This document shows positions 39,880 to 64,000 of a stretch of 64,000 bases of DNA, piece after piece; within the stretch, counting starts at the first letter, position 1, and every line of letters starts with the position of its first letter. Both the position numbers and the translations under genes were made by a program. Source of the stretch: Amphibalanus amphitrite (lineage: Eukaryota > Arthropoda > Thecostraca > Balanomorpha > Balanidae); contig NW_024881501.1 in assembly GCF_019059575.1 (NCBI RefSeq), positions 1,798,001 to 1,862,000 of the forward strand. Direction: 5' to 3'. Under the pieces are notes generated by a model. That model did not search any database and was not told the origin of the DNA. It was given only the letters and a program-made list of their open reading frames with translations.

Positions 39880-40159
39880 TGTTGTGATGCGTGCTACTGA
39901 GCCGGCACGAACTCTGCCGGCGCAGTCAGCTGACAGCTGTTGCCAGCCGCCGCGGCGCCGGCCGGCGCCTGATGGTAGGCTGTGCCGCCCGGCAGCTTCC
40001 GGCGTCCTTGAGTAAAGAGTATTGTTGTGCAGTCGTCAGCCGGACTCAATACAGTTCACATCGGGAGTGCGCGTGTGCGTCTGGGGCGGCGGAATCGCGA
40101 CGATAATTAATTTGCTATCGAACCATTATTAACGTAGACTTAAATGTAAAACCATAACA
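39880..40159 (+). repeat. 5' LTR
   Basis: 280 bp, starting TGTTGTG and ending CATAACA. I see no difference from the 3' copy. A 71-codon open frame inside it is repeated in the other LTR and is not considered a gene. Confidence 0.96.
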
Positions 40160-40177
40160 TGGCGCGATCGGTATAAT
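40160..40177 (+). promoter_or_regulatory. Putative primer-binding site
   Basis: TGGCGCGATCGG begins directly at the LTR edge. TGG is what pairs with the CCA end of a tRNA. The donor tRNA could not be identified by eye. Confidence 0.6.
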
Positions 40178-40235
40178 TTACTTTTTATCGTTAAATATAG
40201 CATTTTTTCGTCGGTTTTCGCGCGCGTTTCTCGCA

Positions 40236-43200
40236 ATGACGGAGGAAGGCAAGCCGGTGGACCTGGGAGCCCTCACCCAACTCCTCGCCCAGCAACTGAA
40301 GCTGGCTCAAGAAGCTCAGCGACAAAGCCAGCAGCGGGAGGAGCGTATGGTGGCCGTAATGGAACGGATGTGGGCCGGGCCGGCGGCAGGGGCCGGCGCT
40401 GCAGCCGCGGCGGCTACTGCAGCGGCCACCCCAGCCGATACGAACGCAGCCGTCAATCTACCGCCCAGACTGCCGGCATCAGCGACTCCCGCTCCACAGC
40501 TGTCGTCATCAGCGTCACTGAAGGAGTTTGAATCCTGGCGACAGAAATTTCACGGCTACAGTCTGCTGACTGGCGTCAACAGGCTAGCCCAGCCCGAGCA
40601 GAAGGCAGCCCTACTCGCTCTGCTTGATGATGATTGGACCAGGGTGGTCAGGTACGGCCTGCCGATCCCCGAAGACGCTGACATGAGCACCATCATCACG
40701 GCGATGCAGACGCATCTGCGCCGCCAGCGTAACGTCATCATTGATCGCCGAGATTTTTACATGCGAGTACAGGAAGCGGGCGAAACAGTGGACGATTTTC
40801 TCTGTGGACTGAAAGAGATTGCATCGTTCTGTGATTTCTGTCACCACTGCCAGGACAACAGGTTCAGAGATCGAGTCGTCGTCGGCACGCGAGACGAAGA
40901 AGCACGCCGCAGAATGTTGGAAGAGCCGGATCTCACGCTTCAGAAGGCAGTGGATATCGCCAGAGCGTCAGAGAATGCCGCCTCCAACAGCTCAGCCATC
41001 CGTGAACCAGCTGGCTCGACCCTAGCGAGGGTCTCTCAGTACCAGCGCAGCCGCGGTCGCCCGAGAGACCGGTCGGCTGAGAAGACGTGCCCCCGCTGCG
41101 GTGGTGAAGTTCACCGTAGCGCCGGCGACTGCAGGGCCGTCAAGAGGACCTGCCGAGCTTGTGGCAAGGTAGGCCACTTCGCGTCTGTCTGCCGCGGTCG
41201 CAGCGCCAGTCGCTCGCGCGCTCCGGCGGCGAGCACAGACCGGACCCAGCGGAGGTCCGATGGAGGCAGACGTGTGTCGCTCGTCACAATGAAGACGCGA
41301 GCGGCATCTGCACCTGCCAGACAGACAGTGGACCAGCAGCACCGAGACTGCATGATCCAAGGCCTGCACACGACGCGTGCTCCGCAGATCCAGATTCTGC
41401 TGCATCGGAGTGACGGTCGCAGGCAACAAACGACATGGACGCCAGATACAGGCGCTGAGGTGTCTGTAATCTCTCTGGAGGCAGCGAAGCAGATGGGCAT
41501 CAACGTCAAGAAGCTGACGCCGCCCTCTGGAAGCCTGTTCGCAGCGGACGGACGAGAACTGCCGTGCCTGGGAGCGTGCCAAGTCGCACTGCAGCTGGGA
41601 AGCATCAAGAGGACGATAGCCGTCTCTGTGGTGAAGAAGCTGCACAGCTCGCTGCTGTCGTGGCACGACGCTGTTCGACTGGGAATACTGCACAAGGAGT
41701 TCCCACAGCAGATCCGTTCTGCCATCTCAGACGAGGAGGAGACCTCCAGACCAGCTCCAGCAGTCTGCTCCCTGAAGACCATGCCAGGGAAGAGCAAGAT
41801 ACCCCGCAGAGTGGTCAAACGAGGCTCTGCTCCTGCGCTTGAAAACGCCGGGAAGGCGCAGAAGATGCACCCGCTGAAGCCGACGTGGGATGCAAGCAAA
41901 GGCGTGCCATCGGCTGAAGAACGACAGAAGCACTTCTCAGCGATGAAGGAAGCCTTCCCACGAGTGTTTGACGTCACCTCGAAGCTGCGCAAGATGTCCG
42001 GAGGCTCAATGGCCATCGAGTTGACTGAAGACGCCACACCAGTTGCCGTCTCCACAGCTCGCAGTGTACCGTTCTGCTGGCGTGACGACATTCGGCGCCA
42101 GCTGGATGAGCTGCTGAAGAGTGACGTGATCGAGCCGGTGGAGCATCCGACCGAGTGGTGCCACCCCATCGTGCCGGTGGCGAAGCGGTCGCCGGACGGC
42201 ACGGTCTCTGGCTGCCGTCTGACGGTCGACCTCACCAAGCTGAACCGATTCGTCAAGAGGCCAGCGTACCCAGTCAGGTCGCCGCACGACGCTGTGGCCT
42301 CGATCGGCAGCGGTGCGAACTTCTACACGAAGCTGGATAGCAAGTCTGGCTACCACAAGATCCCCATCCGCGAGGAGGACCAGGACAAAACGTGCTTCAT
42401 CACGCCATGGGGCCGTTTCCGCTACAAACGTGCCGTCATGGGTCTGATCTCGTCAGGAGACGAGTACAACCGAAGAGGCGACGCTGCCCTCGGTGACATC
42501 CCTCAGACCTGCAAAGTCGTAGACGACATCCTTGCGTACGACTCGAGCTACTCAGCTCACCTGGAGCACGTGTGGAACATCCTGCAGAGATGTGATGACC
42601 ACGGGATGACTCTGAACCCAGACAAGTGCTCCTTCGCCGGGAATGAGGTGGAGTTCTGTGGATTCAAGATTGACCAGACAGGCTACACCGCAGACAACAA
42701 GAAGGTGCGAGCCATCGCGGAGTTTTCGCAGCCGGCGTGCCTCACGGACCTCAGATCGTTTCTCGGTCTCGTGAACCAGCTGGGTGACTTCTCACCAGAC
42801 GTCTCGGCCGCCGCCGAGCCTCTGAGACACCTCCTGCGACCGAAGAACGAGTGGGTGTGGACGCCGCTGCACTCCAAAGCTTTCAGTGATGTGAAGAAGG
42901 CGCTGGTCTCGCCACCAGTCCTCGACTTCTTTGACCCGCGGCGCCGGACAGTCCTGGAGACCGACGCCGCTCGCCTACGAGGGCTGGGTTTCTGTCTGCG
43001 GCAACAGGATGCAGATGGACGATGGAAACTGATCCAGTGTGGGTCTCGTTTCCTGACCGATGTGGAGTCCCGCTACGCCGTCTGCGAGATTGAGATGTTG
43101 GCAGTTGCATGGGCTTGTCGGAAGTGCAGCATGTACCTCTCGGGCATGCAGCAGTTCGAGGTGGTCACAGACCACCGATCGCTCGTTCCAGTGCTGAACT

Positions 43201-44825
43201 CCAAGAGCCTCATCGACATCGACAACCCGCGACTGCAACGGCTACGGCAACGTCTCACGCCGTTCAACTTCGTCGCTGTCTGGCGGCAAGGGAAACTGCA
43301 CGCGATCCCGGATGCGCTCTCCCGGGCACCGGTGGATACTCCGACTCCAGACGACGAAGAGGCGGAGAAGGAGGAAGCCCACCAGATCGCAAGCTTGATC
43401 GCCAGAATCGCCACGGCTGATCCGACCGAGGACGACTCACTGTTCCCGGACGCTACTCTGCAGAGGGTCCGGGCGGCGTCTGAGCGTGATGCAGAGCTCC
43501 GCGCCCTCCGAGACGTGGTCTTGGCTGGCTTTCCAGACCACAAGTCGCAGCTGGAGCCGACGCTGCGGCCCTACTGGACAGCTAGAGACCGTCTCGCCGT
43601 GGACGGCAGCCTGTTGGTATGCGGGCAGCGACTCCTGATTCCTCAGAGTCTGCGTCGGGAGACGCTCGAGCGGCTTCACGCCAGCCATCAAGGTGTGGAG
43701 CGCACCAAGCGTCGGGCTAGACAAGTTGTCTACTGGCCCGGGCTTGACCAGGACATCGCTAACCTCGTCGCAGCGTGCAAGTCCTGCCAGATGTATCTTC
43801 CGAGCCAGCAAAAGGAGCCGCTAGTCTCCGAGGCGGTGCCAACTCGAGTCTTCGAGGCCGTCTCAGCGGACTATTTTTCGTGGGCTGGTCGCACGTATCT
43901 TGTATACGTAGATCGCCTCTCTGGATGGCCGTTCGTCTTCCACTGCTCTGGAGAGACGTCGGCGAAGGACCTGGTGTCCAGCCTGAGGGTCGCCTTCGCG
44001 GCCACTGGGGCACCCAAGACTCTGCGAACGGACGGAGGGCCGCAGTTCGCAGCCCGTCACACCCGTGACTTCCTGCGACGGTGGGGAGTGACCCACGAGA
44101 TCTCCACTCCGCATTTTCCTCAGTCAAACGGACATGCGGAATCTGCAGTGAAGGCAGTGAAGAGGCTCGTGCAGAAGGTCAGCGACCGAGGCAACCTGGA
44201 CAATGACGCGTTCGCGCACGGCCTCTTGGAGCTGCGGAACGCGCCTCGGGCCGATGGTCGCTCGCCGGCCCAGATTCTGTACGGTCACCCGCTGCGCTCT
44301 ACCGTGCCAGCCCACCACCGAGCGTTTGCCGAGGTGTGGCAGCGCGCGGCGGAGGAGTGTGATGAGAGAGCAGCCGCTCTGAAGTCCCAGACCGCAGAGC
44401 GCTACGACGCGAGCGCCCGCTCGCTGAGACCTCTGCGCATCGGTCAACAGGTTCTCCTGCAAGATCCGAAGACTGGTTTGTGGGACCGGACAGGCGTCGT
44501 CGTTGGCATCGGCAGCCGCCGAGACTACCTCGCTCGCCTGCCAAGCGGCCGCACCTACTGGCGGAATCGACGATACCTCCGCCCGCTGCGGCCGATGGTG
44601 ACCACGTCACCCGATGGCAGCCGAGACGCCATCACCGAAGACGGCGACAGCGCCCGAACCAGGAACGCCGACAGCGGGACCCCAGTCGCTGACAAAGTCC
44701 CCCGCAGCCGCCCTGGCGGAGCGACCCCCGCGCCTGACGCCTCTGTGAGGCGCAGCAAACGACTTCGTCGACAGCCTAAGAGGCTGACTGTGACTTGGTC
44801 GGACCCAGTGTACGAGTTCGTGTAG
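40236..44825 (+). CDS. Gag-Pol polyprotein of a Ty3-type retrotransposon
   Basis: A single 1,529-residue frame encodes all functions needed to copy and insert the element. Residues about 8-45 form a Gln/Glu-rich, probably coiled-coil segment. The Gag region ends with two zinc knuckles: C285-C299 has CX2CX4HX5C spacing and C306-C319 has the canonical CX2CX4HX4C. The protease motif DTGAEVSVIS starts at D404. Reverse transcriptase has D665 in LTVDLTKLN and the catalytic pair D763-D764 in VVDDI. RNase H has D910, E953 and D979. Integrase has an H-H-C-C zinc domain near 1150-1190 and D1212, D1266 and E1302, an exact D,D35E spacing. The tail is basic, with no chromodomain seen. Gag and Pol are fused without a frameshift. 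The first ATG with a full-length frame was chosen, 77 bp after the LTR. Every catalytic residue is present, so the element may be active. Confidence 0.96.
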   Translation: MTEEGKPVDLGALTQLLAQQLKLAQEAQRQSQQREERMVAVMERMWAGPAAGAGAAAAAATAAATPADTNAAVNLPPRLPASATPAPQLSSSASLKEFESWRQKFHGYSLLTGVNRLAQPEQKAALLALLDDDWTRVVRYGLPIPEDADMSTIITAMQTHLRRQRNVIIDRRDFYMRVQEAGETVDDFLCGLKEIASFCDFCHHCQDNRFRDRVVVGTRDEEARRRMLEEPDLTLQKAVDIARASENAASNSSAIREPAGSTLARVSQYQRSRGRPRDRSAEKTCPRCGGEVHRSAGDCRAVKRTCRACGKVGHFASVCRGRSASRSRAPAASTDRTQRRSDGGRRVSLVTMKTRAASAPARQTVDQQHRDCMIQGLHTTRAPQIQILLHRSDGRRQQTTWTPDTGAEVSVISLEAAKQMGINVKKLTPPSGSLFAADGRELPCLGACQVALQLGSIKRTIAVSVVKKLHSSLLSWHDAVRLGILHKEFPQQIRSAISDEEETSRPAPAVCSLKTMPGKSKIPRRVVKRGSAPALENAGKAQKMHPLKPTWDASKGVPSAEERQKHFSAMKEAFPRVFDVTSKLRKMSGGSMAIELTEDATPVAVSTARSVPFCWRDDIRRQLDELLKSDVIEPVEHPTEWCHPIVPVAKRSPDGTVSGCRLTVDLTKLNRFVKRPAYPVRSPHDAVASIGSGANFYTKLDSKSGYHKIPIREEDQDKTCFITPWGRFRYKRAVMGLISSGDEYNRRGDAALGDIPQTCKVVDDILAYDSSYSAHLEHVWNILQRCDDHGMTLNPDKCSFAGNEVEFCGFKIDQTGYTADNKKVRAIAEFSQPACLTDLRSFLGLVNQLGDFSPDVSAAAEPLRHLLRPKNEWVWTPLHSKAFSDVKKALVSPPVLDFFDPRRRTVLETDAARLRGLGFCLRQQDADGRWKLIQCGSRFLTDVESRYAVCEIEMLAVAWACRKCSMYLSGMQQFEVVTDHRSLVPVLNSKSLIDIDNPRLQRLRQRLTPFNFVAVWRQGKLHAIPDALSRAPVDTPTPDDEEAEKEEAHQIASLIARIATADPTEDDSLFPDATLQRVRAASERDAELRALRDVVLAGFPDHKSQLEPTLRPYWTARDRLAVDGSLLVCGQRLLIPQSLRRETLERLHASHQGVERTKRRARQVVYWPGLDQDIANLVAACKSCQMYLPSQQKEPLVSEAVPTRVFEAVSADYFSWAGRTYLVYVDRLSGWPFVFHCSGETSAKDLVSSLRVAFAATGAPKTLRTDGGPQFAARHTRDFLRRWGVTHEISTPHFPQSNGHAESAVKAVKRLVQKVSDRGNLDNDAFAHGLLELRNAPRADGRSPAQILYGHPLRSTVPAHHRAFAEVWQRAAEECDERAAALKSQTAERYDASARSLRPLRIGQQVLLQDPKTGLWDRTGVVVGIGSRRDYLARLPSGRTYWRNRRYLRPLRPMVTTSPDGSRDAITEDGDSARTRNADSGTPVADKVPRSRPGGATPAPDASVRRSKRLRRQPKRLTVTWSDPVYEFV

Positions 44826-51889: not shown

Positions 51890-52190
51890 GGGCGTCTGCG
51901 TCCGCCGGCTCGCCGGACTGAACCTCCCGCTGCTGAGCCGGCTCGCCGGACTGAACCCCCGCTGACTGAGCCGGCTCATCGGACTGAGCAGCCGACTGAG
52001 CCGGCTCATCGGACTGAGCAGCCGACTGGCCGGACTATGCCGGCCGATGACTGAGCCGGCGTCGGACTGAACTTCATCCGGCCAGCAGGTCTCGCAGAGC
52101 CTCACTGGTTGCTGAGCTGACCTGAGCTCACAGGTCCCCCAGCTGACCTGACAGGTCGCCCAGCTGACCTCCCTGGTCGCCCAGCTGACC
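51890..52190 (-). repeat. Minisatellites in the presumed NUDCD1 3' UTR
   Basis: Two arrays occur: GAGCCGGCTC(A/G)(T/C)CGGACTGA units at 51905-52040, and 21-bp units containing CCCAGCTGACCT at 52130-52195. The second abuts the stop codon. It resembles the last codons of the gene, which encode a Gly-Gln-rich tail. Confidence 0.7.
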
Positions 52191-52337
52191 TCACTGATCC
52201 CCCACCTGACCCCCCTGGCCGCCCAGCACCAGCGCGTGCAGCTGACCGGCGGTGAGGACAAAGATGGCGCCGGGGGCGGCCGTCACCCCGAGAATCGGCG
52301 CCTGGTCCTCCAGACTGACCACCTGCTGGCGAGACAC
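52191..52337 (-). CDS. NUDCD1: NUDCD1 exon J with stop codon
   Basis: 147 nt, phase 0. Acceptor GGCGGCCGCCAG|GTG. It encodes VSRQQVVSLEDQAPILGVTA, then ...AIFVLTAGQLHALVL, matching the family C-terminus, followed by a Gly/Gln-rich tail (GGQGGQVGDQ) and TGA. The tail resembles the 21-bp repeat that follows the stop, so it may be a repeat-derived extension. Confidence 0.93.
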   Translation of the reverse strand: MSRQQVVSLEDQAPILGVTAAPGAIFVLTAGQLHALVLGGQGGQVGDQ

Positions 52338-55300
52338 CTGGCGGCCGCCGAGCGAACCATCAGTACACAGAGGGCAGCACAACGGTACACAGAGGGAAAC
52401 ATCAGCATAAGAGAGGGAAACATAAGCACAGAGAGGGCAGGACGACGGTACACAGGGGGAAACACACAGCACACACTACACAGAGGGAAACACACAACAG
52501 TACACATCACACAGAGAGAAATACACAGTAGTACCACATCGGTACAGAGGGAAGTATCAGTATACACTATACAGACGGCAGTACATTCGTGCGCGGAGGG
52601 TAGCACATCAACATTCAGCAGATCCTTCACAGAGGGAGATGCACATCAGTACACAGAGGGAATCAACAGTACACACAAGAAAGCACAACAACATTAAGAG
52701 GGAAACACATCACTCATCAATATGTACAGAGGTCAGCTGCAGCTCAGCAGTCAGCAAATCGGTAAACCGAAGGAAACAAATCAGTTAATATATGGAGACG
52801 TCAGCATAGAGAAGGAACACATCAGAAAACAGAGAAAAAACGGCATTACACAAAGAGAAGCGTCAGTTCACAGAGGGAAACACGCAACAGTGCAGAGGGA
52901 AACAAACAACACTACACAGAGGTTATAACAGTACACAGAGGGATCAGGGAAACACACATCAGTAGACAACAGTACACGGAGCGAAACACACAGGAGTACG
53001 CAGAGGGAAATAACTGCAGCACACAGAGGGCAGCATAGCCACCCCAGCTGGATCGCAGTTCGAGCACCGTTCTGCAGCGTCCGGCCACGACTCCGCGTGA
53101 CAACTGAACAATTTCAGAGTGCTGACATGGTTACAACTAGGTGAAACGTTCGGGCTCAGAGGGTTGTCAAGGCTCAGTGAGCACACCTCCACCAGCCGCT
53201 GACATTTGGCTTAAGGCCTCCCGTCGATCCCTTAGCCCACAGCGGGTGACTCCACACACCCTCTACCCCACCCGACCCGACCTGGCCGGTCGGCCGGCGC
53301 GCCCGGCCCTACTCACCTCTCTGACGCGCCTCCCGGACTTTCTGTTGCGCAGGTCTCCGTCGACAGCCGACGGCTGGTGGTAGATGTACACGTGCCGGGA
53401 CGTCTCACACACCAGCGCGTACGAGAGGTCTGAGGGGGGCGGGACACCGGTCACACTGGGGCGGGACACGGGCCACACTGGGGCGGGCCACGGGCCACAG
53501 ACCAGCGCGTACGAGGGGTGTGCGGGGAGCGACACCGGTTACTGGGGTGAGATACGAGACATTGGGGCGGAAGGACCGATGTCCTCCCTCCCCAGTGACC
53601 TGGAGGCGTGGATGGGCCTATTGTCATAACTAGCAATAAGTTAGCCATAAGTTATATGCCAGACAGCCGCAGTATGCAAACAAAGCCAGTCCGGGCTCCC
53701 GCTATACACTACAAGTGCAGACCACTGTCCACTCCCGCTATACAGTCCGCAGTTCTGGAAACACGCAGTGACAGACGCCGCAGTGGCGGACGGGGCGCGC
53801 TGAAGGACGGGTCGCTCTGCCCGGACCGGGGACGTCTGTCTGTCACCGACCGACACCCACCTGTGGCGCAGGTGATGAACTTGCGCTGCTGTTTAGACGC
53901 CTGCACGAAGCCGAACGCCTGCAGCGTACCCACGTGTTCACACTGGTACCTGCGGGAGGGGGGGGGGGGGAGCGAGTGAGGGGGAGCGGTACCAGGGGAG
54001 GGGGGAGTGAGGGAAGGCGCGCCTAATTACCACAGAATACATATACTACCCTGGAAAAAAATTGGCACCTTCCGTGAATAAATAATGATTTATGAAACCA
54101 ATGATACAAAATATTGAGGGCCGCCGCAGTTCCACCGTTAAAACAAAACCACCATCCGACATCAAAACAGTCAGACATCTGAACTGAGCTGTCACCCTCA
54201 CTGTCACCAGCGGGACTGACTGAAACCCTGGACTGTCACCCCGAGCAGACCTTTCACCCTTGACTGACCTGACACCCAGAATTGGCCTATCATCATGGAT
54301 TAACCTGTAACCCTTGACTAACCTGACATACTGGACTGACCTGTTATCCTGACAGCTGGGCTGCCAGACGAGTCCGTCGACATCGTGTCTGATGCAGAAG
54401 GCCGGTGGTTCGGCGGCCGACAGGCGGACCGTCATCAGGTACTGGTGACCGCTCAGACTGACCTGGTGTAACATAACACACTGTCATCAGGTACTGGTGA
54501 CTGACCTGGTGTAACACACTGTCATCAGGTAATGGTGACTGGCCTGGTGTAACACAACACACACCGTCATCAGGTACTGGTGACCGCTCAGACTGACCTG
54601 GTGTAGCACAACACACACTGTCATCAGGTACTGGCGACTGACCTGGTGTAACACAACACACATTGTCAGATACTGGTGACTGACCTGGTGTAACACAACA
54701 CACACTGTCATCAGGTACTGGTGACTGACCTGGTGTAACACACTGTCATCAGGTACTGGTGACTGACCTGGTGTAACACAACACACACTGTCATCAGGTA
54801 CTGGTGACTGACCTGGTGTAACACAACACACACTGTCACCAGGTACTGGTGACCGCTCAGACTGGCCTGGTGTAACACAACACACTGTCATCAGGTACTC
54901 GTGACTGACCTGGTGTAACACAACACACACCGTCATCAGGTACTGGTGACCGCTCAGACTGACCTGGTGTAACACAACACACACTGTCATCAGGTACTGG
55001 TGACTGACCTGGTGTAACACAACACACACTGTCATCAGGTACTGGTGACTGCTCAGTGCTCAGCCCGGCCCCCCAATCTCTGTACTCTGCCGCAGCCCAG
55101 CTCTGCCCGTCGGACGCTCGGACGCTCACCTCGTGGGTCACCGCCCCGGTCTCTCCGTCCATCCGGTAGAGGGCAGCACTGTGCTCGGGCAGGTCATCGC
55201 ACTCCTCCACCTCCGTGCCGACCACCGGTCCGGGCCGGTCCGGGTCCGCCTCCTGGGAGACACACAGACCGGGAGGGTCGTCACACACAGTAGGTACCAC

Positions 55301-58300
55301 CGGTCCGGGTCCGCCGCCTGGGAGACATACAGACGGGGAGGGTCGTCACACACAGTAGGTATCACCGGTCCGGGTCCGCCTCCTGGGAGACATACAGACG
55401 GGGAGGGTCGTCACACACAGTAGGTATCACCGGTCCGGGTCCGCCTCCTGGGAGACATACAGACGGGGAGGGTCGTCACACAGTACCACCGGTCCGGGTC
55501 CGCCTCCTGGGAGACACACAGACGGGGAGGGGTCACACACAGTACCACCGGTCCGGGCCGGTCCGGGTCCGCCTCCTGGGAGGCATACAGACGGGGAGGG
55601 TCGTCACACACAGTAGGTATCACCGGTCCGGGTCCGCCTCCTGGGAGACATACAGACGGGGAGGGTCGTCACACACAGTAGGTATCACCGGCAGTGTCCT
55701 GATTTTCGTGAATTTGGGTGGAAACCCACACCTAACAGATTCTCTTTGTGACGTCCCGGAAAGCCAAACGACGTCCCTGACAGATAAAAGTCGATAGGTA
55801 TATAGAACACCAAAAGCAAACTAACAAAAAGAAATATCACCTCTGTAGCCTAAAAACACGGCTATGCAAAATGACAATAAATATATCCTAAGTCCTCAAA
55901 AACTCACTCTTACACTCAACTCCCCTTTCCTGGCCAACTGCCGCAACAGTAAACAACGCGGTTTTATTTTATTTTTGTTTTCTGTGCGTCATATATGGAT
56001 AAGTTTTTTCCTTTACCATGTGAAGGTAATGCTGCCATATGAAGGAGAAAAGATGTCGGAATAGAGGGATCTGAGGACGTCGTTTTCCACTTTTCAGTTT
56101 TAGTAACTGTGCAGTGTATAGATAAAAATTAATCATGCGAATATATTACTTGGACATTTATCTATAAGCACGCAACATACCTTTTGTATCAAATTACTGT
56201 AACATATTTAATTATTTTTTCCCCTCAGAAGGTCACAGTAACGGGTTAGCGCTGCCCCTTGAACATGCCCTTCAAAAGTAGTTAATTTTGCATATGTTGA
56301 TAGTGGTTGGGGGAAAAGTTTAATGTTTATCTGTTTGAATTAAAATAAAGCCACCGAATTTCAGCAGTATTAATTCAAGTATGTCGTCCTTGGGGCTTAA
56401 AAATGCACGCAATGTTGGGGACGTCGATTGACCTTGTTATTCCCATTTAATCGACGTCAGTACAAAACTGAAAAGTGCACAATGATTTCACATTTTTTTC
56501 CAGCCAAGAAAAATTCAGCGTCCACCTTGGAGTTTTCTTAATTGAATTTCATAACAGGAAGCTATGGAAATTAATTTTCCGAGTTGTTTTCCACCTCTTT
56601 GTTTGGACGTCTGTTTTTTTACATCAGTCCTCTTGCTCGATATGATATCCCTCTTATGACGTCAACATTTAGTGATAGCCGCTGGCTCTTGGGCTGATTT
56701 TTGTTGAAGCATATTTGTTGTTGACTGTTATGTACGATCATGGACAAGAACTAGACATCTTCAAAGTGTTGTTTTGGTGTTTGTGGTGAATGCTTGAATT
56801 TTGTATTTTACTAGGGGTAAACTGGCATTACTTTGTGTCTATATATGATCATTTGAGGTGCCTTGAGGTGGTATTAGTCAATATTGCCAGTGAAAATCGC
56901 TAATTTTAAGAGATTTAGGTAAGGGCTTCAGTGGCTTAGGCTCCGCACCGATATCGACGTCCTTTTGAAATAGCGACGTCCTCGCGGCTTCAATCACACT
57001 CTCCGAAAAATCAATTTCAGGACACTGATCACCGGTCCGGGTCCGCCTCCTGGGAGACACACAGACCGGGAGGGTCGTCACACACAGTAGGTACCACCGG
57101 TCCGGGTCCGCCTCCTGGGAGACATACAGACGGGGAGGGTCGTCACACCACACACAGTACCGGGCCGGTCCCGGTCCGCCTCCTGGGAGACATACAGACG
57201 GAGAGGGTCGTCACACTCAGCCCCGCCGACGGTGAGGGGTCGCACGGACTGTCGAGGAGCGGACTGATACGTATCCGCCCGGCGGTCGGCAGCAGACTGC
57301 TGTGGTCGCCAGCCTGCGGTCCGCACCCCGCGCAGTGGGGCGGTTCGATAGGATCCCTCTCAGGTGCGACTGCGGTGCCGTGGGATGGGCGTTTCAGTAC
57401 GGCCCCTCACCGGCTTGCGTTCCGTTGTATCCATGGCGTCGTCGCCGGCCGTGTCGGCGTCGGTAGTCTGCTGGCCGCGCGTGTCGCCGACCAGCAGCTC
57501 GGCCCAGCGCTGGCCGCGCTCCACCTTGGCCAGCACCAGCTCCAGCCTGGGGAGGGACGGGGACGGCAGGGTCAGCGAGGGCAGGCCAGCACCAGCTCCA
57601 GCCTGGGGGGGGGGGGGGACGGGAGGATCAGCGGTCAGCGCCAACCAGAGCCGCCAGCGCCGCCAGCCAGTCGCTCTCGCCTTACCAGGGCGGGGGAAGC
57701 AGACAACACCCGCCACGGTTCGAGATCACTCTACCGATTACATGCCAATGGCACGGAACACATTCGGCAGACTATTAGCTCTCATAAGAACCCTACCCAT
57801 AATCTGGCTAAAAAATCAAACAGCCAACTCTGCCCACGAGGTAAGAAACTATCGCTTTCCAATCATCCAACGGTCACTTCAATTGAGCACTATCCACCAC
57901 CCAACCTCCCTCCTACCTGCCGTCGTCCACGGTCCAGGTGGTGCTCTCGTCTCTCCTACCTGCCGTCGTCCACGGTCCATGTATCCCTCCCCTCCTACCT
58001 GCCATCGTCCACGGTCCAGGTGCTCTCGTCTCTCCTACCTGCAGTCGTCCACAGCCCAGCTGGTGCTCTCGTCTCTCCTACCTGCCGTCGTCCACGGTCC
58101 ATGTATCCCTCCCCTCCTACCTGCCATCGTCCACGGTCCAGGTGCTCTCGTCTCTCCTACCTGCAGTCGTCCACAGCCCAGCTGGTGCTCTCGTCTCTCC
58201 TACCTGCCGTCGTCCACGGCCCAGGTGTTCCCTCCTACCTGCCGTCGTCCACAGTCCAGCTGGTGCTCCCGTCTCTCCTACCTGCCGTCGTCCACAGCCC

Positions 58301-61300
58301 AGCTGGGGCTCCCGTCTCTCCTACCTGCCGTCGTCCACAGTCCAGGTGCTCTCGTCCCGTCGGATGGCGGCCGGTAGCGCGCCGCGCAGCACCGTCTGCT
58401 GGCCGGCCGACACGCTCAGCTCACTGGGCTCCAGCACCACGCGCACGCCGTCGGCGCAGCCCACCGGTGACGTCAGCTGAACGGTGACGTCATCGGCCGT
58501 CTGACTCCAGCGGTACAGCGGCTCTGTGGCGGACAGAACACGCCGTCAGAGCACACAGAACACGCCGTCAGAGCACACAGAGCACACAGAACACAGGGCG
58601 GCGGTCAGAGGCCGGCGGACAGAACACGCCGTCAGAGCACACAGAGCACACAGAGCACACAGAACACACAGAGCACACAGAGCACACAGAACACGCCGTC
58701 AGAGCACACAGAGCACAGGGCGGCGGTCAGAGGCCGGCGGAGCTGAACCGCGGCGGACAGAACACGCCGTCAGAGCACACAGAACACACCGTCAGAGCAC
58801 ACAGAACACGCCGTCAGAGCACACAGAACACGCCGTCAGAGCACACAGAGCACACAGAACACGCCGTCAGAGCACACAGAGCACACAGAGCACACAGAGC
58901 ACAGGGCGGCGGTCAGAGGCCGGCGGACAGAACACGCCGTCAGAGCACACAGAACACACAGAACACACAGAGCACACGGCGGCGGTCAGAGGCCGGCGGA
59001 CAGAACACGCCGTCAGAGCACACAGAGCACACAGAGCACACAGAGCACACAGAGCACAGGGCGGCGGTCAGAGGCCGGCGCAGTCCGAACCATCCGCCGC
59101 TGGGGACAGGGCGCCAGGGAGGTCGCAGCCGGGGAGGCCGGAGCCGGGGCACCAGGGATGCCCGCGGAGCAGGGAGACAGGGAGGCCGGAGCCGTCAGCC
59201 GGGGCTGCTGAAAAAACGAGTCACGTGGTCTCCCAAGGCGTGGTAACGCGCGGCAGAGAAATAAAGACGGTGTGGTAGAGAAGCTTGTAAAAGCTATTTA
59301 TAATTTATATACACTGTGGTAAAAGCTAAACATCATCCGGTACCGTCGGACACCGGACTGGTTTGTTACATAACTAAACACGGCGATACTCAGTGACCAA
59401 GGAGCGTGCTACGACTAAAAGCCACAAGAAATTAACCCGCGAGTTGCTGGGGGGGGGGAGGGGGGGGCGTTAAACGCCCCCACTTTTTTCGCCGCGCCAT
59501 AGCATAAAAACGGGCGCCAAATTTTGGGTACCTGTAGGGCATTGATTTAAGTTTATTGGGACAAAGTTTCAAAAAAATCGGTCCGAAAAATTTTGAGATA
59601 TCGAGGTTTTAGTGACGTCATGATTTCTGAGTTTTCGACCAAAAACGGCATATGTTCAAAAAATGATATAAAATCACAGAACAGACATACAGACATGCAG
59701 TAAACGCCATGAGACTGCCAATACCATGAACAATCAAATGGCTATCTTCGATTATTGATTATCGTTCCGCATTTTCCAAAATCTTGAACTGAATCTTGGC
59801 AATTTCTCGTGACTACTTCACGACCATGATACATGCATTTCTTAAATTGAACTTTTTGAGCCAAACACGTACACATATGATAAAATGAATGTCACCATCG
59901 TGTTCTACGCCCCAAATTACCCATAAAACATATGTCACGGGCTGCGAATATCAGTTTTGATTTTCGGGGATATGTGCCTACCCGGTTGACCTGACCTTGA
60001 CCCTGACCTATGCTTGACTGACCCCTACATGGAGCTGACACTCTTGTAGGCCCTATATGATGGATTGTGCACCGTTTTGACAGAGTTTATGACGAGAGGC
60101 GCCCATTGCGAGGTCCTGAAGTCCATGCTACTGAAAGCCCGATTTCAGGTGTTTGACCTGACCTTGACCCGACCTGTGACCTCACAATTCAACTTTAAAG
60201 TACTCATCTGAAGCGTCTCGTCACGTTCTTTCGTTTGCCGCCTCGTGCGTTTCGCTGCGCCTATTGGTTCTCGAGTTATCGGCTGGGGGCGTTTAATGCC
60301 CCCCCCCCCCCAGCAAACAGTGGGTGGCGAAATACCCCAGCAACTGCCGGGTTAACCCTCGCCCGTAAACGGTGTTTTGCCACCTTCGCCCATGCAGGGG
60401 GGGGGGGGGTTGGTGCGACCCCCCCCCTGGCGTTTGAAAACGGAGGGTCGTAGAGCTTAGCGGAAAAGACCAACGGATTGCTCTCGACGAGATCTCGCGA
60501 TTGGTGGTATATTTTTTGGTCCTAGGTCAACATTTGACCTACTTATGACCGGTCAAAGGTCAAATTTTCGGGAAAATCTAACTTTTTCAGATTTCCGCGC
60601 CGATTGCGGCAAAACGGTAAGAGATATCGACTTGAAACCTTCACTATCGTGATCCTTGATCAATTCTCTATCGTTTGGTGTGTATTTCGATGTCATAACT
60701 CTAAAAATGATGCGTTGGGAGCATCGGAAGTCTGCAAGGTCATTTGTGCATTGGGTCACGTCAGGCGTGTGACGTCACTGACCTGACCCTGACCCAAAAT
60801 GAACTACAAGAAACAACCGACGATGCCTGAAATGGATAGCAAATTCGAATTCAGGGCATCAAAATACCCCGAAAAGGCATACAAGTGCAAGAAGTCATTA
60901 CAGGTCAACCGAGGTCACTGACCTGACCTTGACCTTTAGTAACCTTGAAAAGGTCAACGGACATTGTGCCAATGTCAAATCAGCCAGTTATGATTCTAAA
61001 ACAATCCATCAGTGTGTCAGGTCAGTCGACATTTATACCAATGTGAAGCAATCTCCAATTTAGCGTAAATCTGGCCGGAGGTTGTTCCCTTTATGACGTC
61101 ATAACTCCATGACCTGACATGACCTTGACAAAAAAATACTAAAAGTTGCGCAAAGGATGCCTCATAGGGTACTGAAAATTTGAGCAAGCTATCTGAAACG
61201 GTTCGGCGTGTAGCTAAGAAAAAACCTCAGGGGGGGGGTTGCACCAACCCCCCCCCCCCCCCTACATGGGCGAGGGTTAATATCAAGCCCAGCTGTGACT

Positions 61301-63123
61301 TTAAAACAGGGTCTCTCCGTGCGGCGGTTGCAGCACCAGCCACTACAATAATCACAAAGTCCAGCAACTGGTTACATACAGTGCGGGTCACGCAATGCGC
61401 TCCAGTAAACAGCCGAGGCTCACCCTGTGGTTCCGTCTGGTTCCCGGCGCCGGACCCCGCGCCGGTGTCGGCAGCGGCAGCGGTAGGGGCGGCCGGTCTC
61501 TGCGAGTCGCGCACCAGCGCCGCCGGCCGGTCGGCAGCCACGCAGAGCGCGCCGCCGGACTGCTCCAGACACGAGTAGTGCACCGTGCCGGCGGTGGCCG
61601 CCTGCCGCAGCCGCGTCACGCGCCACCCACAGTCGGCGTCTGTCCGACAGAGGGGAGGGGGGGGGTAAGGGTACAGTAGCCACCCACAGTCGGCGTCTGT
61701 CCGACAGAGGGGGGGGGGGGGTTAAGGTACAGCCGCCGCCCACAGTCGGCGTCTGTCCAACCACGGGGAGGGGTGTTGGGTTCCTTCCCACAGTCGTCAC
61801 CCCTATTTTAGTCGTGCGAAGGTCAAACAATAAATGCACTTTATTTTAAATCTATCACTCAAAGCACTAACTGTCTGACAAGATAAAGAGAGTACCTACT
61901 CCTCTTTAATGTCTTGTTCACGGAGTTGTTAGTTGCGGACCGGGGCTGAGCCCGTCCGAACGGCCTGTCCTCTGGACGGGCTCAGCCACGGCGACTCTCT
62001 AGGGTGTCTGCCCAGACCAATGTCTCCCCCTAATTCCTATCATCCTTCCGGCTCTGCAATGGTCTTGTCAGACCGAAAGGGCCTAACCCCCAATAAACAC
62101 AACAAAAAAAAAAAAAAACAAAAAAGTTGTTAGTTGTGTTGGGGGTCGGTATCGGACCACGGTCCGCCTCTGCCGTCGGTGCCCGGTCCAGCGCCCACCT
62201 GCCGTCGGTGCCCGGTCCCCGCCCACCTGTCTCCAGGGTATCGGACCACGGTCCGCCTCTGCCGTCGGTGCCCGGTGCCCACCCACCTGTCTCCAGGGTA
62301 TCGGACCACGGCCCCTCTCTGCCGTCGGTGCCCAGTCCCCGCCCCCTCTGCCGTCGGTGCCCGGTCGCCGCCCACCTGTCTCCAGGGTCAGCCAGGTGAG
62401 CAGGTTGAGGAAGGTGGCCTCGGCGCCGCCGTCCGGCCGCCACTCGGGCACCGTCTCCTTCTCCACCACGTGCTCGGTGAGCGCGTGCAGCCGGCCGGCC
62501 GGGTCCAGTGCACAGTGGGCCAGCACGAACCCGGCGCCGGCCAGTGGCTCCAGGCGGGCCGCCACCTGACCGGAACGGGATCGCCGAGCACGGGTCAGAG
62601 ACGGGACAGGCGGGACTGGCGGGATCGCCAAACACGGGCACCGGCTACAGGGCAAGGACAGCGGACAACTGGACACAGCATACCTAGTGGCTGCAGCTAA
62701 CACAGTTTGCTTCCGAAACACAGACAGAATACCGGGCACTGCTCTAATTCACACATCATAAGAGCATCGGTAAAATGCCATAGAACGAGAGTAGCACATG
62801 AAAATCAGTAAATAAATTAACATCACGAAAGACGGCCACATCAACGCGTAAGTAGAGCTCGTGTTTGACAGCGGCAGCAGCGGGTGAGTTGAGCTGGCGT
62901 ATGACGGTGCTATCGCCGGCGGCCGTACCTGCCAGGGCTGGTGCTGCCGGCGGTCCCCGGTCTGTGCCACGTACAGCGAGCCGCGCCCGTCAGCGACCAG
63001 CGCCAGCCGCTCGGAGGCCAGGCAGAGCGAGGGGTGGGTGGGCGCGCCGGCAGCGTCCGCGGCGCCGCCGGACGGCAGCTGCAGCACCGCCGTGTCGCGC
63101 AGACGGGACGGCGCACCCGGCGA
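52191..63123 (-). CDS. NUDCD1: NUDCD1 orthologue, ten exons seen, 5' end outside window
   Basis: NudC domain-containing protein 1 is a conserved CS/p23-domain protein. NudC-family members act as co-factors of Hsp90-type chaperones, and human NUDCD1 is reported to bind COPI coat proteins. Ten exons join (63123-62929, 62565-62376, 61639-61424, 58523-58325, 57546-57411, 55252-55130, 54462-54341, 53949-53861, 53429-53317, 52337-52191) into 1,530 nt: 509 codons plus stop. All junctions have GT-AG ends and matching phases. Diagnostic blocks in family order are GSLYVAQTGDR, EPLYRWSQTADDVTVQL (CS domain start), RWAELLVGD, EVEECDDLPEHSAALYRMDG, FCIRHDVDGLVWQP, FGFVQASKQQRKFITCA, SYALVCETSRHVYIYHQP and QQVVSLEDQAPILGV. 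The family is about 580 residues long, so roughly 90 N-terminal residues lie upstream. Between exons 5 and 6 of this set the protein is shorter than the human one. A small exon could be missed there. Confidence 0.93.
52340..53060. repeat. CAGAGGGAAACACA tandem repeat in the last intron
   Basis: Imperfect copies of GTACACAGAGGGAAACACA(A)CA start right next to the exon J acceptor and run about 700 bp. Exon sequence is not included here. Confidence 0.85.
53317..53429 (-). CDS. NUDCD1: NUDCD1 exon I
   Basis: 113 nt, phase 1 to 0. Acceptor GCCCCCTCAG|AC, donor AGAGAG|GTGAGT. It encodes LSYALVCETSRHVYIYHQPS, then ...RNRKSGRRVRE, matching the family SYA-LCE--R-VFIY-QP block. A partial copy of the acceptor and first 18-20 exon bases lies upstream at about 53500-53530. 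Confidence 0.94.
53445..53535. repeat. Duplicated exon I start and GGGGCGGGACACGGGCC units
   Basis: CACCAGCGCGTACGAG of exon I recurs as GACCAGCGCGTACGAG at about 53500. Between the two are three GGGGCGGG(A/C)CAC(G/A)GG units. Confidence 0.7.
53861..53949 (-). CDS. NUDCD1: NUDCD1 exon H
   Basis: 89 nt, phase 2 to 1. The acceptor follows a C-run (CCCTCCCGCAG|G) and the donor is GCCACAG|GTGGG. It encodes YQCEHVGTLQAFGFVQASKQ and QRKFITCAT, matching the conserved ALGYVQASK block of the family. Confidence 0.94.
54341..54462 (-). CDS. NUDCD1: NUDCD1 exon G
   Basis: 122 nt, phase 0 to 2. Acceptor TTACACCAG|GTC, donor GATAACAG|GTCAG. It encodes VSLSGHQYLMTVRLSAAEPP, then AFCIRHDVDGLVWQPSCQDN, matching the family CFCLRHDVD-L-WQP signature. 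About 32 exon bases with the acceptor recur about 13 more times up to 55050. Confidence 0.94.
54480..55050 (-). repeat. Splice-junction minisatellite upstream of exon G
   Basis: About 13 copies of 39-52 bp containing GTCATCAGGTACTGGTGAC and GACCTGGTGTAACACAACAC (plus-strand sense). Each reproduces the exon G acceptor and up to 32 bases of exon G. Confidence 0.93.
55130..55252 (-). CDS. NUDCD1: NUDCD1 exon F
   Basis: 123 nt, phase 0 at both ends. Acceptor GTGTGTCTCCCAG|GAG, donor CACGAG|GTGAGC. It encodes EADPDRPGPVVGTEVEECDD, then LPEHSAALYRMDGETGAVTH, matching the family block EECD...LCRFDG. The acceptor with about 18 exon bases is repeated nine more times upstream. Confidence 0.93.
55253..55691 (-). 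repeat. Splice-junction minisatellite upstream of exon F, left block
   Basis: Six copies (plus the real exon edge) of a 58-66-bp unit, CACCGGTCCGGGTCCGCCTC followed by CTGGGAGACATACAGACGGG. Every unit holds a CCCAG acceptor and the first codons of exon F. Confidence 0.93.
55692..57027. mobile_element. 1.3-kb non-autonomous hAT element in a NUDCD1 intron
   Basis: The ends are CAGTGTCCTGA (11 bp perfect inverted repeat, then partly matching ATTTTCG blocks). The exact 8-bp duplication ATCACCGG lies at 55684-55691 and 57028-57035. The element is AT-rich, unlike its surroundings, with no transposase frame. It sits inside the exon F minisatellite. Confidence 0.87.
57028..57215 (-). repeat. Splice-junction minisatellite of exon F, right block
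   Basis: Three further copies of the 58-66-bp unit, continuing the array interrupted by the hAT element. Confidence 0.92.
57411..57546 (-). CDS. NUDCD1: NUDCD1 exon E, end of CS domain
   Basis: 136 nt, phase 2 to 0. Acceptor CCCTCCCCAG|G, donor AAGCCG|GTGAGG. It encodes LELVLAKVERGQRWAELLVG, the family's conserved W-PELV-GD closing strand, then a Thr/Asp-rich linker. A second acceptor with the first 19 or so exon bases lies upstream at about 57588-57606, but that copy does not lead into the full exon. Confidence 0.92.
57905..58324 (-). repeat. Splice-junction minisatellite downstream of exon D
   Basis: About ten copies of roughly 40 bp (CTACCTGCCGTCGTCCACGG, TCCAGGTGCTCTCGTCTCTC in plus sense). 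Each reproduces the end of exon D with its GT donor. A three-unit block of about 120 bp is itself repeated (57958-58077, 58078-58197). Confidence 0.93.
58325..58523 (-). CDS. NUDCD1: NUDCD1 exon D, start of CS domain
   Basis: 199 nt, phase 1 to 2. Acceptor CTGTCCGCCACAG|AG, donor GACGGCAG|GTAGG. It encodes EPLYRWSQTADDVTVQLTSP and ...RRDESTWTVDDG, the core strands of the CS/p23 fold. The last 30 or so coding bases with the donor are repeated about ten more times in the next intron. Confidence 0.95.
58524..59090. repeat. GGCGGACAGAACACGCCGTCAGAGC repeat upstream of exon D
   Basis: The unit CGGACAGAACACGCCGTCAG with variable numbers of AGCACACAG recurs about ten times. Blocks of GGCGGCGGTCAGAGGCCGGC are interspersed. 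It begins at the exon D acceptor but does not copy the exon. Confidence 0.88.
59091..59431. other. Intron DNA, nothing recognised
   Basis: Part of NUDCD1 intron C-D. Contains short GGGAGGCCGGAGCCG duplications near 59120-59195. Confidence 0.35.
59436..60351 (-). mobile_element. TTAA-flanked element, copy 7, inside NUDCD1
   Basis: TTAA lies at 59432-59435 and 60352-60355. The ends are CCCGCGAGTTGCTGGGG and, inverted, CCCGGCAGTTGCTGGGG. It is a near-identical inverted copy of 11854-12776. Non-coding. Confidence 0.82.
60356..61276. mobile_element. TTAA-flanked element, copy 8, abutting copy 7
   Basis: It begins directly at the TTAA (60352-60355) that ends copy 7 and finishes at TTAA 61277-61280. 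The ends are CCCTCGCCCGTAAACGG and, inverted, CCCTCGCCCATGTAGG. Hairpins GGGGTTGGTGCGACCCC and GGGGTTGCACCAACCCC lie inside the ends. AGGTCA motifs are frequent. Confidence 0.8.
61424..61639 (-). CDS. NUDCD1: NUDCD1 exon C
   Basis: 216 nt, phase 1 to 1. Acceptor CCCCTCTGTCGGACAG|AC, donor CCACAGG|GTGAGC. It encodes CGWRVTRLRQAATAGTVHYS... and an Ala/Ser/Gly-rich linker ending NQTEPQ, corresponding to the acidic linker before the CS domain. The acceptor and exon start are repeated at about 61680 and 61738. Confidence 0.9.
61640..61780 (-). repeat. Triplicated exon C acceptor
   Basis: CCCACAGTCGGCGTCTGTCC plus a GACAGAGGGG-run recurs at about 61626, 61683 and 61740. The first is the real exon edge. 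The second keeps the CAG acceptor; the third has lost it. Confidence 0.88.
61936..62125 (+). mobile_element. Retroposed insert with poly-A tail in NUDCD1 intron B-C
   Basis: An insert of about 190 bp ends CCCCCAATAAACACAAC followed by a 15-A tail. An 11-bp exact target duplication, GTTGTTAGTTG, flanks it (61925-61935, 62126-62136). This is the signature of LINE-type target-primed insertion. It may be a SINE or the 3' end of a 5'-truncated LINE. The family was not identified. Confidence 0.8.
62137..62375 (-). repeat. Splice-junction minisatellite downstream of exon B
   Basis: Units of GTCCGCCTCTGCCGTCGGTG and CCACCTGTCTCCAGGGTATC (plus sense). The CACCTGTCTCCAGGG part, which is the donor and end of exon B, is present at 62226, 62285 and the true edge. 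Confidence 0.9.
62376..62565 (-). CDS. NUDCD1: NUDCD1 exon B
   Basis: 190 nt, phase 0 to 1. Acceptor TTCCGGTCAG|GTG, donor GAGACAG|GTGGG. It encodes VAARLEPLAGAGFVLAHCAL... and ...FLNLLTWLTLET, aligned with the family segment that ends in LEWVTI. The last 12 exon bases and the donor are copied twice more in the following intron (about 62225-62240 and 62284-62300). Confidence 0.9.
62566..62928 (-). other. NUDCD1 intron A-B
   Basis: Contains one 42-bp tandem duplication next to the exon B acceptor (GGGATCGCC(G/A)A(G/A)CACGGG at 62577 and 62619). The rest is plain. Confidence 0.6.
62929..63123 (-). CDS. NUDCD1: NUDCD1 exon A (first seen)
   Basis: 195 nt, phase 0 at both ends. The acceptor is GTGCCGCCAG|TCG and the donor TGGCAG|GTACGG. 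It encodes ...RLRDTAVLQLPSGG... and ...ERLALVADGRGSLYVAQTGD, matching the family segment before the serine/glycine turn of the N-terminal half. The exact 5' edge is the least certain of the ten exons because the acceptor lacks a long pyrimidine tract. Confidence 0.82.
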
Positions 63124-63139
63124 CTGGCGGCACGGCCAG

Positions 63140-63900
63140 CGTGAGCTCCGGTCAGCGCCCGGCAGAGCGGGAACGGCAGTCAGTCAGCAGAGGGAATGGG
63201 AGTCAGTCAGCAGAGGGAATAGGAGTCAGACAGCAGAGGGAATAGGAGTCAGACAGCAGAGGGAATAGGAGTCAGTCAGCAGAGGGAATAGGAGTCAGAC
63301 AGAGGGAATAAGAGTCAGACAGCAGAGGGATTAGGAGTCAGACAGCAGAGGGAATAGGAGTCAGTCAGCAGAGGGAATAGGAGTTAGACAGCAGAGGGAA
63401 TAGGAGTCAGTCAGCAGAGGGAATAGGAGTCAGACAGCAGAGGGATTAGGAGTCAGACAGCAGAAGGAATAGGAGTCAGACAGCAGAGGGAATAGGAGTC
63501 AGTCAGCAGAGGGAATAGGAGTCAGACAGCAGAGGGAATAGGAGTCAGTCAGCAGAGGGAATAGGAGTCAGACAGCAGAGGGAATAGGAGTCAGTCAGCA
63601 GAGGGAATAGGAGTCAGTCAGCAGAGGGAATAGGAGTCAGTCAGCAGAGGGAATAGGAGTCAGTCAGCAGAGGGAATATGAGTCAGACAGCAGAGGGAAT
63701 AGGAGTCAGACAGCAGAGGGGATAGGAGTCAGACAGCAGAGGGGAAGAGCTGGAGTCAGCCACAGAGGGGACGGGAGTGAGTCAGCGGGGGGGGGGGGAT
63801 AGGAGTGAATCAGCAGGGGGGGGGCAGGAGTCAGTCAGCAGGGGGGACAGGAGTCAGTTAGCAGGGGGGGGGGGCAGGAGCCAGCCAGCAGAGGGACATA
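63140..63900. repeat. GTCAGNCAGCAGAGGGAATAGGA minisatellite upstream of exon A
   Basis: About 28 copies of a 22-24-bp unit, AGCAGAGGGAATAGGAGTCA plus GACA or GTCA variants. It begins just upstream of the exon A acceptor and turns into G-run-interrupted copies after 63760. Confidence 0.95.
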
Positions 63901-64000
63901 AGTTAGTGAGGAGAGCACCAACACTCAGAGGATGCTGAACAGTAACTCAGCAGAGCAAGATCAGGGGATCAGCAAGTGAAATGAACACAGGAACTCAGTA

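Follow-up and report, generated by a model that had tools for sequence, protein, structure and literature searches.

The NUDCD1 orthologue of the barnacle Amphibalanus amphitrite, located in a 64,000-nucleotide stretch of genomic DNA (hereafter the window), carries in several of its introns minisatellites whose repeated unit includes the end of the neighbouring exon together with its splice site. By their anatomy these arrays are mirages, a kind of minisatellite already known from lancelets: the tandem unit crosses the exon-intron boundary (at 7 of the 22 junctions of NUDCD1 and at 8 of 48 in four other genes), and it does so at both 5' and 3' boundaries. Whether at a donor or an acceptor, a unit takes in the splice site together with between a few and some 35 bases of exon, and unit sequences differ from junction to junction. 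It is probable, in our view, that the arrays are "mirage" minisatellites in the full sense, i.e. that each is specific to its locus, began with a duplication across an exon-intron junction and has no selected function.

NUDCD1 and the copies of its splice junctions

The window corresponds to C4:1798001-1862000 of an assembly of 807.5 Mb in 2,644 contigs, contig C4 being 2,736,387 bases long. NUDCD1 occupies the minus strand and consists of 12 exons, the first two outside the window, with a spliced frame of 602 amino acids. The product contains a CS domain (Pfam, E=3.6e-10) and is 96% identical, over 66% of the query, to the A. amphitrite NudC domain-containing protein 1 (model P0001). A protein search of the assembly assigned the gene to a single place and found no second copy or haplotype of it. 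The exons in the window are as follows.

52191..63123, minus strand: NUDCD1 exons A-J (602-amino-acid spliced frame, Pfam CS domain, model P0001)
63123-62929, minus strand: exon A
62565-62376, minus strand: exon B
61639-61424, minus strand: exon C
58523-58325, minus strand: exon D
57546-57411, minus strand: exon E
55252-55130, minus strand: exon F
54462-54341, minus strand: exon G
53949-53861, minus strand: exon H
53429-53317, minus strand: exon I
52337-52191, minus strand: exon J

Each junction was represented by a probe of 24 bases (8 from the intron and 16 from the exon), and a site in the adjacent intron matching at least 19 of the 24 was counted as a copy; the best score in shuffled introns, at most 18 of 24, falls below this threshold. 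Copies were detected at 7 of the 18 NUDCD1 junctions in the window (7 of 22 in the whole gene), namely the donors of exons B and D and the acceptors of exons C, E, F, G and I, which are exactly the seven edges singled out by a sequence-only reading of the window made beforehand; the other 11 window junctions yielded no copy with the 24-base probe. The extra copies number 2 at donor B, 10 at donor D, and 2, 1, 9, 12 and 1 at acceptors C, E, F, G and I, respectively, the figure for acceptor G dropping from 12 to 3 when a form shorter by 9 base pairs (bp) is set aside and only full-length copies are counted. With the authentic junction included, the range is 2 to 13 (2 to about 14 in that reading). 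The exon part inside the copies measures roughly 13 to 35 bases. Usable-looking GT or AG sites, also claimed there, are indeed intact in 36 of the 37 copies (with 12 counted for acceptor G), the exception being the copy of exon I, which reads GCAC and has lost its AG.

The arrays themselves, delimited with Tandem Repeats Finder (TRF), are listed here together with an insertion in one of them.

62170..62378, minus strand: donor B array; 2 extra copies of ACCCTGGAGACAG followed across the junction by GTGGG, with GT in both (TRF, probe)
61621..61773, minus strand: acceptor C array; 2 extra copies (TRF, probe)
58533..59080, minus strand: array ending 9 bp short of acceptor D, without exon bases (TRF)
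57910..58356, minus strand: donor D array; 10 extra copies, GT in all, with a higher-order unit of 122 bp (TRF, probe)
57528..57658, minus strand: acceptor E array; 1 extra copy (TRF, probe)
57028..57216, minus strand: remainder of the acceptor F array beyond the insertion; 3 further copies (TRF at 57030-57216, probe)
55692..57027, strand not assigned: DNA transposon-like insertion of 1,336 bp in the F array, bounded by terminal inverted repeats of 11 bp (CAGTGTCCTGA) and accompanied by a target duplication of 8 bp (ATCACCGG)
55235..55691, minus strand: exon-side part of the acceptor F array; 6 extra copies, each including some 18-32 bases of exon (TRF, probe)
54428..55056, minus strand: acceptor G array; 12 extra copies, AG in all, up to 35 exon bases (TRF at 54514-55056)
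54255..54343, minus strand: weak 18-bp array at donor G with 64% matches, overlapping 3 exon bases; no probe copies (TRF)
53411..53539, minus strand: acceptor I; 1 extra copy at 53519, AG lost (TRF at 53436-53499, probe)
52120..52227, minus strand: 21-bp array covering the last codons and the stop codon of exon J and extending beyond (TRF, spliced frame)

The sequence-only reading went too far in placing such minisatellites in almost every intron, as junction copies are confined to 5 introns, out of 9 that the window contains and 11 in the gene. Its further statement that arrays in the remaining introns begin within a few bases of a splice site applies to acceptor D and, weakly, to donor G; intron A-B has no TRF array at all, and at acceptors J and A the arrays are 49 and 54 bp away. 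When the arrays are collapsed and two insertions are removed (the one listed above and one in intron C-D, at 59215-61295, assumed from its look), introns B-C, C-D, D-E, E-F and F-G come down to 87-490 bp, and a large part of their length is therefore due to arrays and insertions; the reduction is smaller in intron I-J, which keeps 852 bp. The transposon-like insertion arrived after the F array, which it splits in two. In three NUDCD1 arrays the identity of the copies shows no trend with distance from the authentic junction, and we accordingly rejected the idea that copies are re-seeded from it.

Two details of these arrays may be recorded separately. The units of the exon G array read CAG/GTCAGT, or GCCAGT after the junction (marked by the slash); most of them contain AG/GTCAGT, and the GT form could be either a donor or an acceptor. 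The 21-bp array at the stop codon of NUDCD1 is an edge repeat of a similar kind that is situated at the end of the coding sequence and not at a splice site.

Junction copies in neighbouring genes

Because NUDCD1 had been chosen for its looks, genes in a further 209 kb beside the window were examined, their coding segments being found by codon usage; together with NUDCD1, the mapped genes span about 210 kb of one contig of a single species. The junctions of TAT (10 introns) and of a PLA2G15-like gene (6 introns) were fixed from public A. amphitrite proteins, and the public proteins (TAT and group XV phospholipase A2) match the neighbouring DNA exactly across all solved junctions. These two were picked as conserved genes after a self-copy scan that already showed copies, and their choice was thus not perfectly blind. 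Two more genes, which we take from their translations alone to be BTBD-like and TPRGL-like, had their junctions placed by hand, and the introns preceding their first found exons enter the count of 48 junctions and stay outside the array tests. A fifth neighbour, presumably LUBEL/RNF31-like on the same grounds, was excluded since exact junctions could not be assigned to it; copies do occur on the edges of several of its coding segments or close by.

The strict probe detected copies at 2 of the 20 junctions of TAT, 3 of 12 in the PLA2G15-like gene, 1 of 9 in the BTBD-like gene and 2 of 7 in the TPRGL-like gene, i.e. at 8 of the 48 junctions of the four neighbours, or 11 of 48 with the requirement relaxed to 8 exon bases. 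Every one of the five mapped genes thus has junction copies, and what the sequence-only reading, confined to one gene, could offer only as a conjecture extends to all four mapped neighbours on the same contig. Over the five genes, copies are found at 8 donors and 10 acceptors out of 34 each. The longest string belongs to a donor of the TPRGL-like gene (position 169889 of the window, L019 and L020-L039 joined), which is followed by some 50 repeats, often 33 bp apart, with GT kept in all 50 counted copies.

Placement of the arrays relative to splice junctions

The same reading had judged the geometry hard to explain by chance and had proposed comparing arrays with randomised positions, a check that we ran on the five genes. 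TRF arrays with periods of at least 9 were placed at random positions in the same introns, allowing up to 35 exon bases and treating arrays as independent. Junctions are spanned by 16 of the 50 arrays, compared to 3.4 expected. For NUDCD1, a gene selected for its striking look, a junction lies within 6 of the 14 arrays (1.2-1.9 expected, P 0.0004-0.003). In the four neighbours, without NUDCD1, 10 of 35 arrays span a junction as against 1.6 expected (none of 5,000 permutations reached this number), and 15 of 35 either span one or end within 20 bp of it (2.6 expected). Weighting the placement by guanine-cytosine (GC) content raises the expectation for the spanning arrays of the four neighbours to 2.5 (P=4e-5), and the excess over random placement is therefore about sixfold, or about fourfold with GC weighting; the judgement that chance placement does not suffice is thereby borne out. 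Taken gene by gene, spanning has a P value of 0.002 in each of TAT, NUDCD1 and TPRGL. Array edges, counted per kb of available intron, reach 4.4 at 0-20 bp from a junction and 0.4-0.6 past 120 bp, a difference of 7-11 times.

Several points weigh against a preference for junctions as such, or limit its reach. Taken by itself, spanning falls short of significance in PLA2G15 (P=0.07) and BTBD (P=0.10), and it does so too in those introns of the four genes that are shorter than 1.5 kb, where it concerns 3 of 7 arrays (P=0.06). GC weighting takes away part of the excess, and if 60 exon bases are allowed in the GC-weighted test of the four neighbours, the comparison becomes 10 versus 3.5 (P=0.0009). 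The test presupposes independence of the arrays, all five genes come from the one stretch of about 210 kb, and the junctions of BTBD and TPRGL were set by hand. Use of the exon-side copy as the authentic splice site is a prediction; the annotated models P0007 and P0127 take the exon-side site, and P0001 enters array units.

A further qualification concerns the shape of the distribution. We determined the fraction of 24-mers with a local copy in NUDCD1, TAT and PLA2G15, dropping low-complexity probes. In exons this fraction is at most 0.012 deeper than 36 bp and 0.075 at 12-36 bp from the edge; it is 0.23 at the junction, 0.28-0.35 over the next 400 bp and 0.12-0.13 in the deep intron. The density thus stays level over the first 400 bases of the intron, as a plateau spilling over into the exon, with no sharp peak at the junction, and to describe the arrays as anchored on the splice site consequently goes beyond the data. 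The junction is favoured, but it is not the lone peak: arrays crowd the exons, cross the border by a few dozen bases and are then presumably stopped by coding constraint.

Base composition contributes to this pattern. Array cover in the deep intron rises from 0.01 below 50% GC to 0.52 above 65% GC, a relation that is partly circular as the array itself enters the local GC value. Intron sequence outside arrays has a GC content of 0.60 in the first 60 bp beside exons and of 0.48-0.52 farther away.

Origin of the junction preference

The founding step of a mirage array would be a short tandem duplication across a junction. Such an event may be nearly harmless, since a copy touching the exon still splices, and duplications wholly within exons would be removed; the extra copies would turn into intron and might expand there by slippage or unequal exchange. 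The preference for junctions is most likely a product of both duplication in GC-rich exon edges and survival of these duplications. The GC-rich edges explain part of the preference among founders, and better survival may explain more of it.

It is possible, though we think it rather unlikely, that splice junctions are instead mutational hot spots, with R-loops coupled to transcription or splicing, repair or template switching duplicating the junctions directly and so causing the founder preference. The concentration of array edges in the first 20 bp and the fact that both donors (8 of 34) and acceptors (10 of 34) are affected would agree with such a process, as would the GC skew of the first 30 intron bases, which is higher at duplicated donors than at the others (0.29 versus 0.19; p=0.02 in one of 16 tests made without correction). 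Junctions with and without copies are, however, alike in homopolymer length and CpG count, the splice-site consensus is not clearly different (p=0.83 for donors, 0.07 for acceptors), the density plateau extends to 400 bp, and the patterns measured may reflect survival as well as mutation. None of the 16 tests, all uncorrected, revealed a convincing sequence feature marking the duplicated junctions; introns are longer at duplicated donors (p=0.004, uncorrected), which may be an effect rather than a cause.

More doubtful still is the notion that there is no preference for junctions whatsoever, and that minisatellites driven by GC content arise throughout short introns and cross junctions by geometry alone. 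Arrays do track GC, which is higher in the non-array intron beside exons, the local repeat density is flat over 400 bp, and where introns are short, arrays of small units are bound to overlap an edge now and then (65% for intron F-G). Nevertheless, the placement test preserves intron length, and the 10 spanning arrays out of 35 still exceed the expectation of 1.6, or of 2.5 with GC weighting; even NUDCD1 with its arrays collapsed and the two insertions taken out (that in intron C-D being an assumed one) has 8 of 13 spanning versus 2.3 expected, a post hoc figure with spans assigned by hand.

That the copies are selected as decoy, back-up or recursive splice sites, one of the explanations floated by the sequence-only reading, we regard as very unlikely. 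In its favour one could cite the intact GT or AG in 36 of 37 NUDCD1 copies and the AG/GT carried by the exon G units, given that tandem AGGT sites can act bidirectionally in human UBC (PMC10809524). Pooled over all columns, the splice-site core is kept at 0.97 as against 0.83 and is higher in 15 of 17 arrays; this signal is misleading, because in many cases the ends of the probe fall beyond the unit that is repeated, and it vanishes against directly neighbouring columns, for which reason we rejected it as an indication of selection. Compared to its six neighbouring columns, the core is better kept in 7 arrays, worse in 3 and equally in 7. It has been lost in 2 of 3 copies of TAT donor 6, 4 of 10 copies of a BTBD acceptor and the only copy of exon I, and in NUDCD1, TAT and PLA2G15 splicing at a copy with an intact core would cause a frameshift or a stop in 46 of the 49 cases tested. 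That GT and AG are no better kept than their surroundings and that nearly all intact copies would be disruptive argues, as far as sequence can tell, against a selected role as decoys or alternative exons.

An assembly artefact, i.e. collapsed or misjoined repeats, is a scarcely plausible source of the arrays. Tandem arrays are hard to assemble, and it is the assembled sequence that was judged. On the other hand, copies inside the arrays diverge, the F array contains a transposon-like insertion with its target duplication, and P0001, which comes from a contig of 142,776 bp and differs from the window gene by six residues in exons A-E, independently has F-array units. This model tracks NUDCD1 through exon E, then enters F-array units and stops, so that about the last third of the protein is missing; the order of its F units is absent from the window haplotype. 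Since P0001 holds its own run of F units, an error in one particular assembly does not explain the F array. Judging from P0001, which is a protein model only, the F array seems to differ between copies of the genome, and the model itself is apparently a mis-annotation caused by the mirage array.

Mobile, introner-like elements bearing splice sites can be dismissed: the repeated intronic units are superficially alike to them, but they include exon sequence of their own gene, and the two units searched in the 807-Mb genome, a 105-base piece of the F unit and a 130-base piece of the D unit, had no matches outside NUDCD1 among the best candidates scored (8 of 8 inside the gene and 4 of 4 inside the donor D array, respectively), which makes mobility unlikely. 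Birth of whole introns by tandem duplication was rejected as well, for the units of donor B and acceptor C are unlike, as are those of donor D and acceptor E, and introns B-C and D-E were therefore not born from such duplications.

Comparison with known systems and implications

A single-locus case is presented by the minisatellite in intron 7 of the human factor VII gene, the unit of which is said to include the exon end and the donor.

The closest counterparts of the barnacle arrays are the lancelet mirages, described, in the passages available, from Adh3, the globins BflGb6 and BflGb9, PGBD5 and TnC (PMC3087553, PMC3902484), a structure that the sequence-only reading had not identified by this name. 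According to the same passages, the repeats cross exon-intron boundaries at both donors and acceptors, many of them with AG/GT, haplotypes differ, splicing is reported as undisturbed, and the Adh3 mirage, with units of 10-72 bp, shows somatic length instability. Boundary-spanning tandem repeats at donors and acceptors, many with AG/GT kept, are thus shared between the two groups, and barnacle unit sizes fall within the Adh3 range or just above it; the lancelet globin units, at 150-160 bp, are longer. The lancelet passages deal with a few genes and contain no placement test, whereas the barnacle, an arthropod, has such arrays in all five mapped genes of one 210-kb stretch, and our analysis adds such a test.

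Two other systems share single aspects. In the potato RdRp gene (PMC4974935), a tandem duplication likewise touches gene structure and splice signals, but an intron was gained there, while in the barnacle the units at the two ends of introns B-C and D-E differ and no new intron is evident. The exon G array repeats AG/GT in the manner of the dual-specific tandem AGGT sites of UBC (PMC10809524), but the barnacle repeats are intronic and a dual role is only a candidate. Outside lancelets we found no such arrays in the literature searched, in which most subscription papers were beyond reach; the words "tandem" and "minisatellite" are absent from the retrieved text of the genome papers on Balanus improvisus (PMC8270832) and Pollicipes (PMC8917513), and "splice" and terms for exon boundaries from that of the Daphnia tandem-repeat survey (PMC3152781). 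As far as our searches reach, the novelty lies in the arthropod case, in the density of arrays in the sampled stretch and in the placement test.

A wider proposition, that barnacle splice junctions are preferred birthplaces of minisatellites genome-wide, with introns growing outward from splice sites independently of lancelets, is one we put forward tentatively, the chances being somewhat less than even. If it were true, a large share of genes would contain polymorphic strings of spare donors and acceptors, and there would be a general route of intron expansion as well as raw material for new exons and introns. The barnacle case carries what was a lancelet curiosity to another phylum and suggests that such arrays are frequent enough there for counting. 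It also makes testable how introns lengthen, why the spliceosome ignores extra sites and whether junction duplication feeds intron gain, and the exon G array is well suited to a test of recursive or dual-specific splicing. Finally, as P0001 loses its last third after entering the F units, such arrays can spoil barnacle gene annotation, which is of practical concern in an important group of fouling organisms.

Other features of the window

Two further features were recorded. A 143-bp tandem repeat of 9.6 copies, most of them with TCAAGGTCAAA-type 12-mers, is found at window positions 20946-22331, with no recognisable gene nearby. An open frame of 1,555 codons extends over positions 40158-44825 of the plus strand, and we take it, from its resemblance recognised by eye, to be similar to a retroelement polyprotein.

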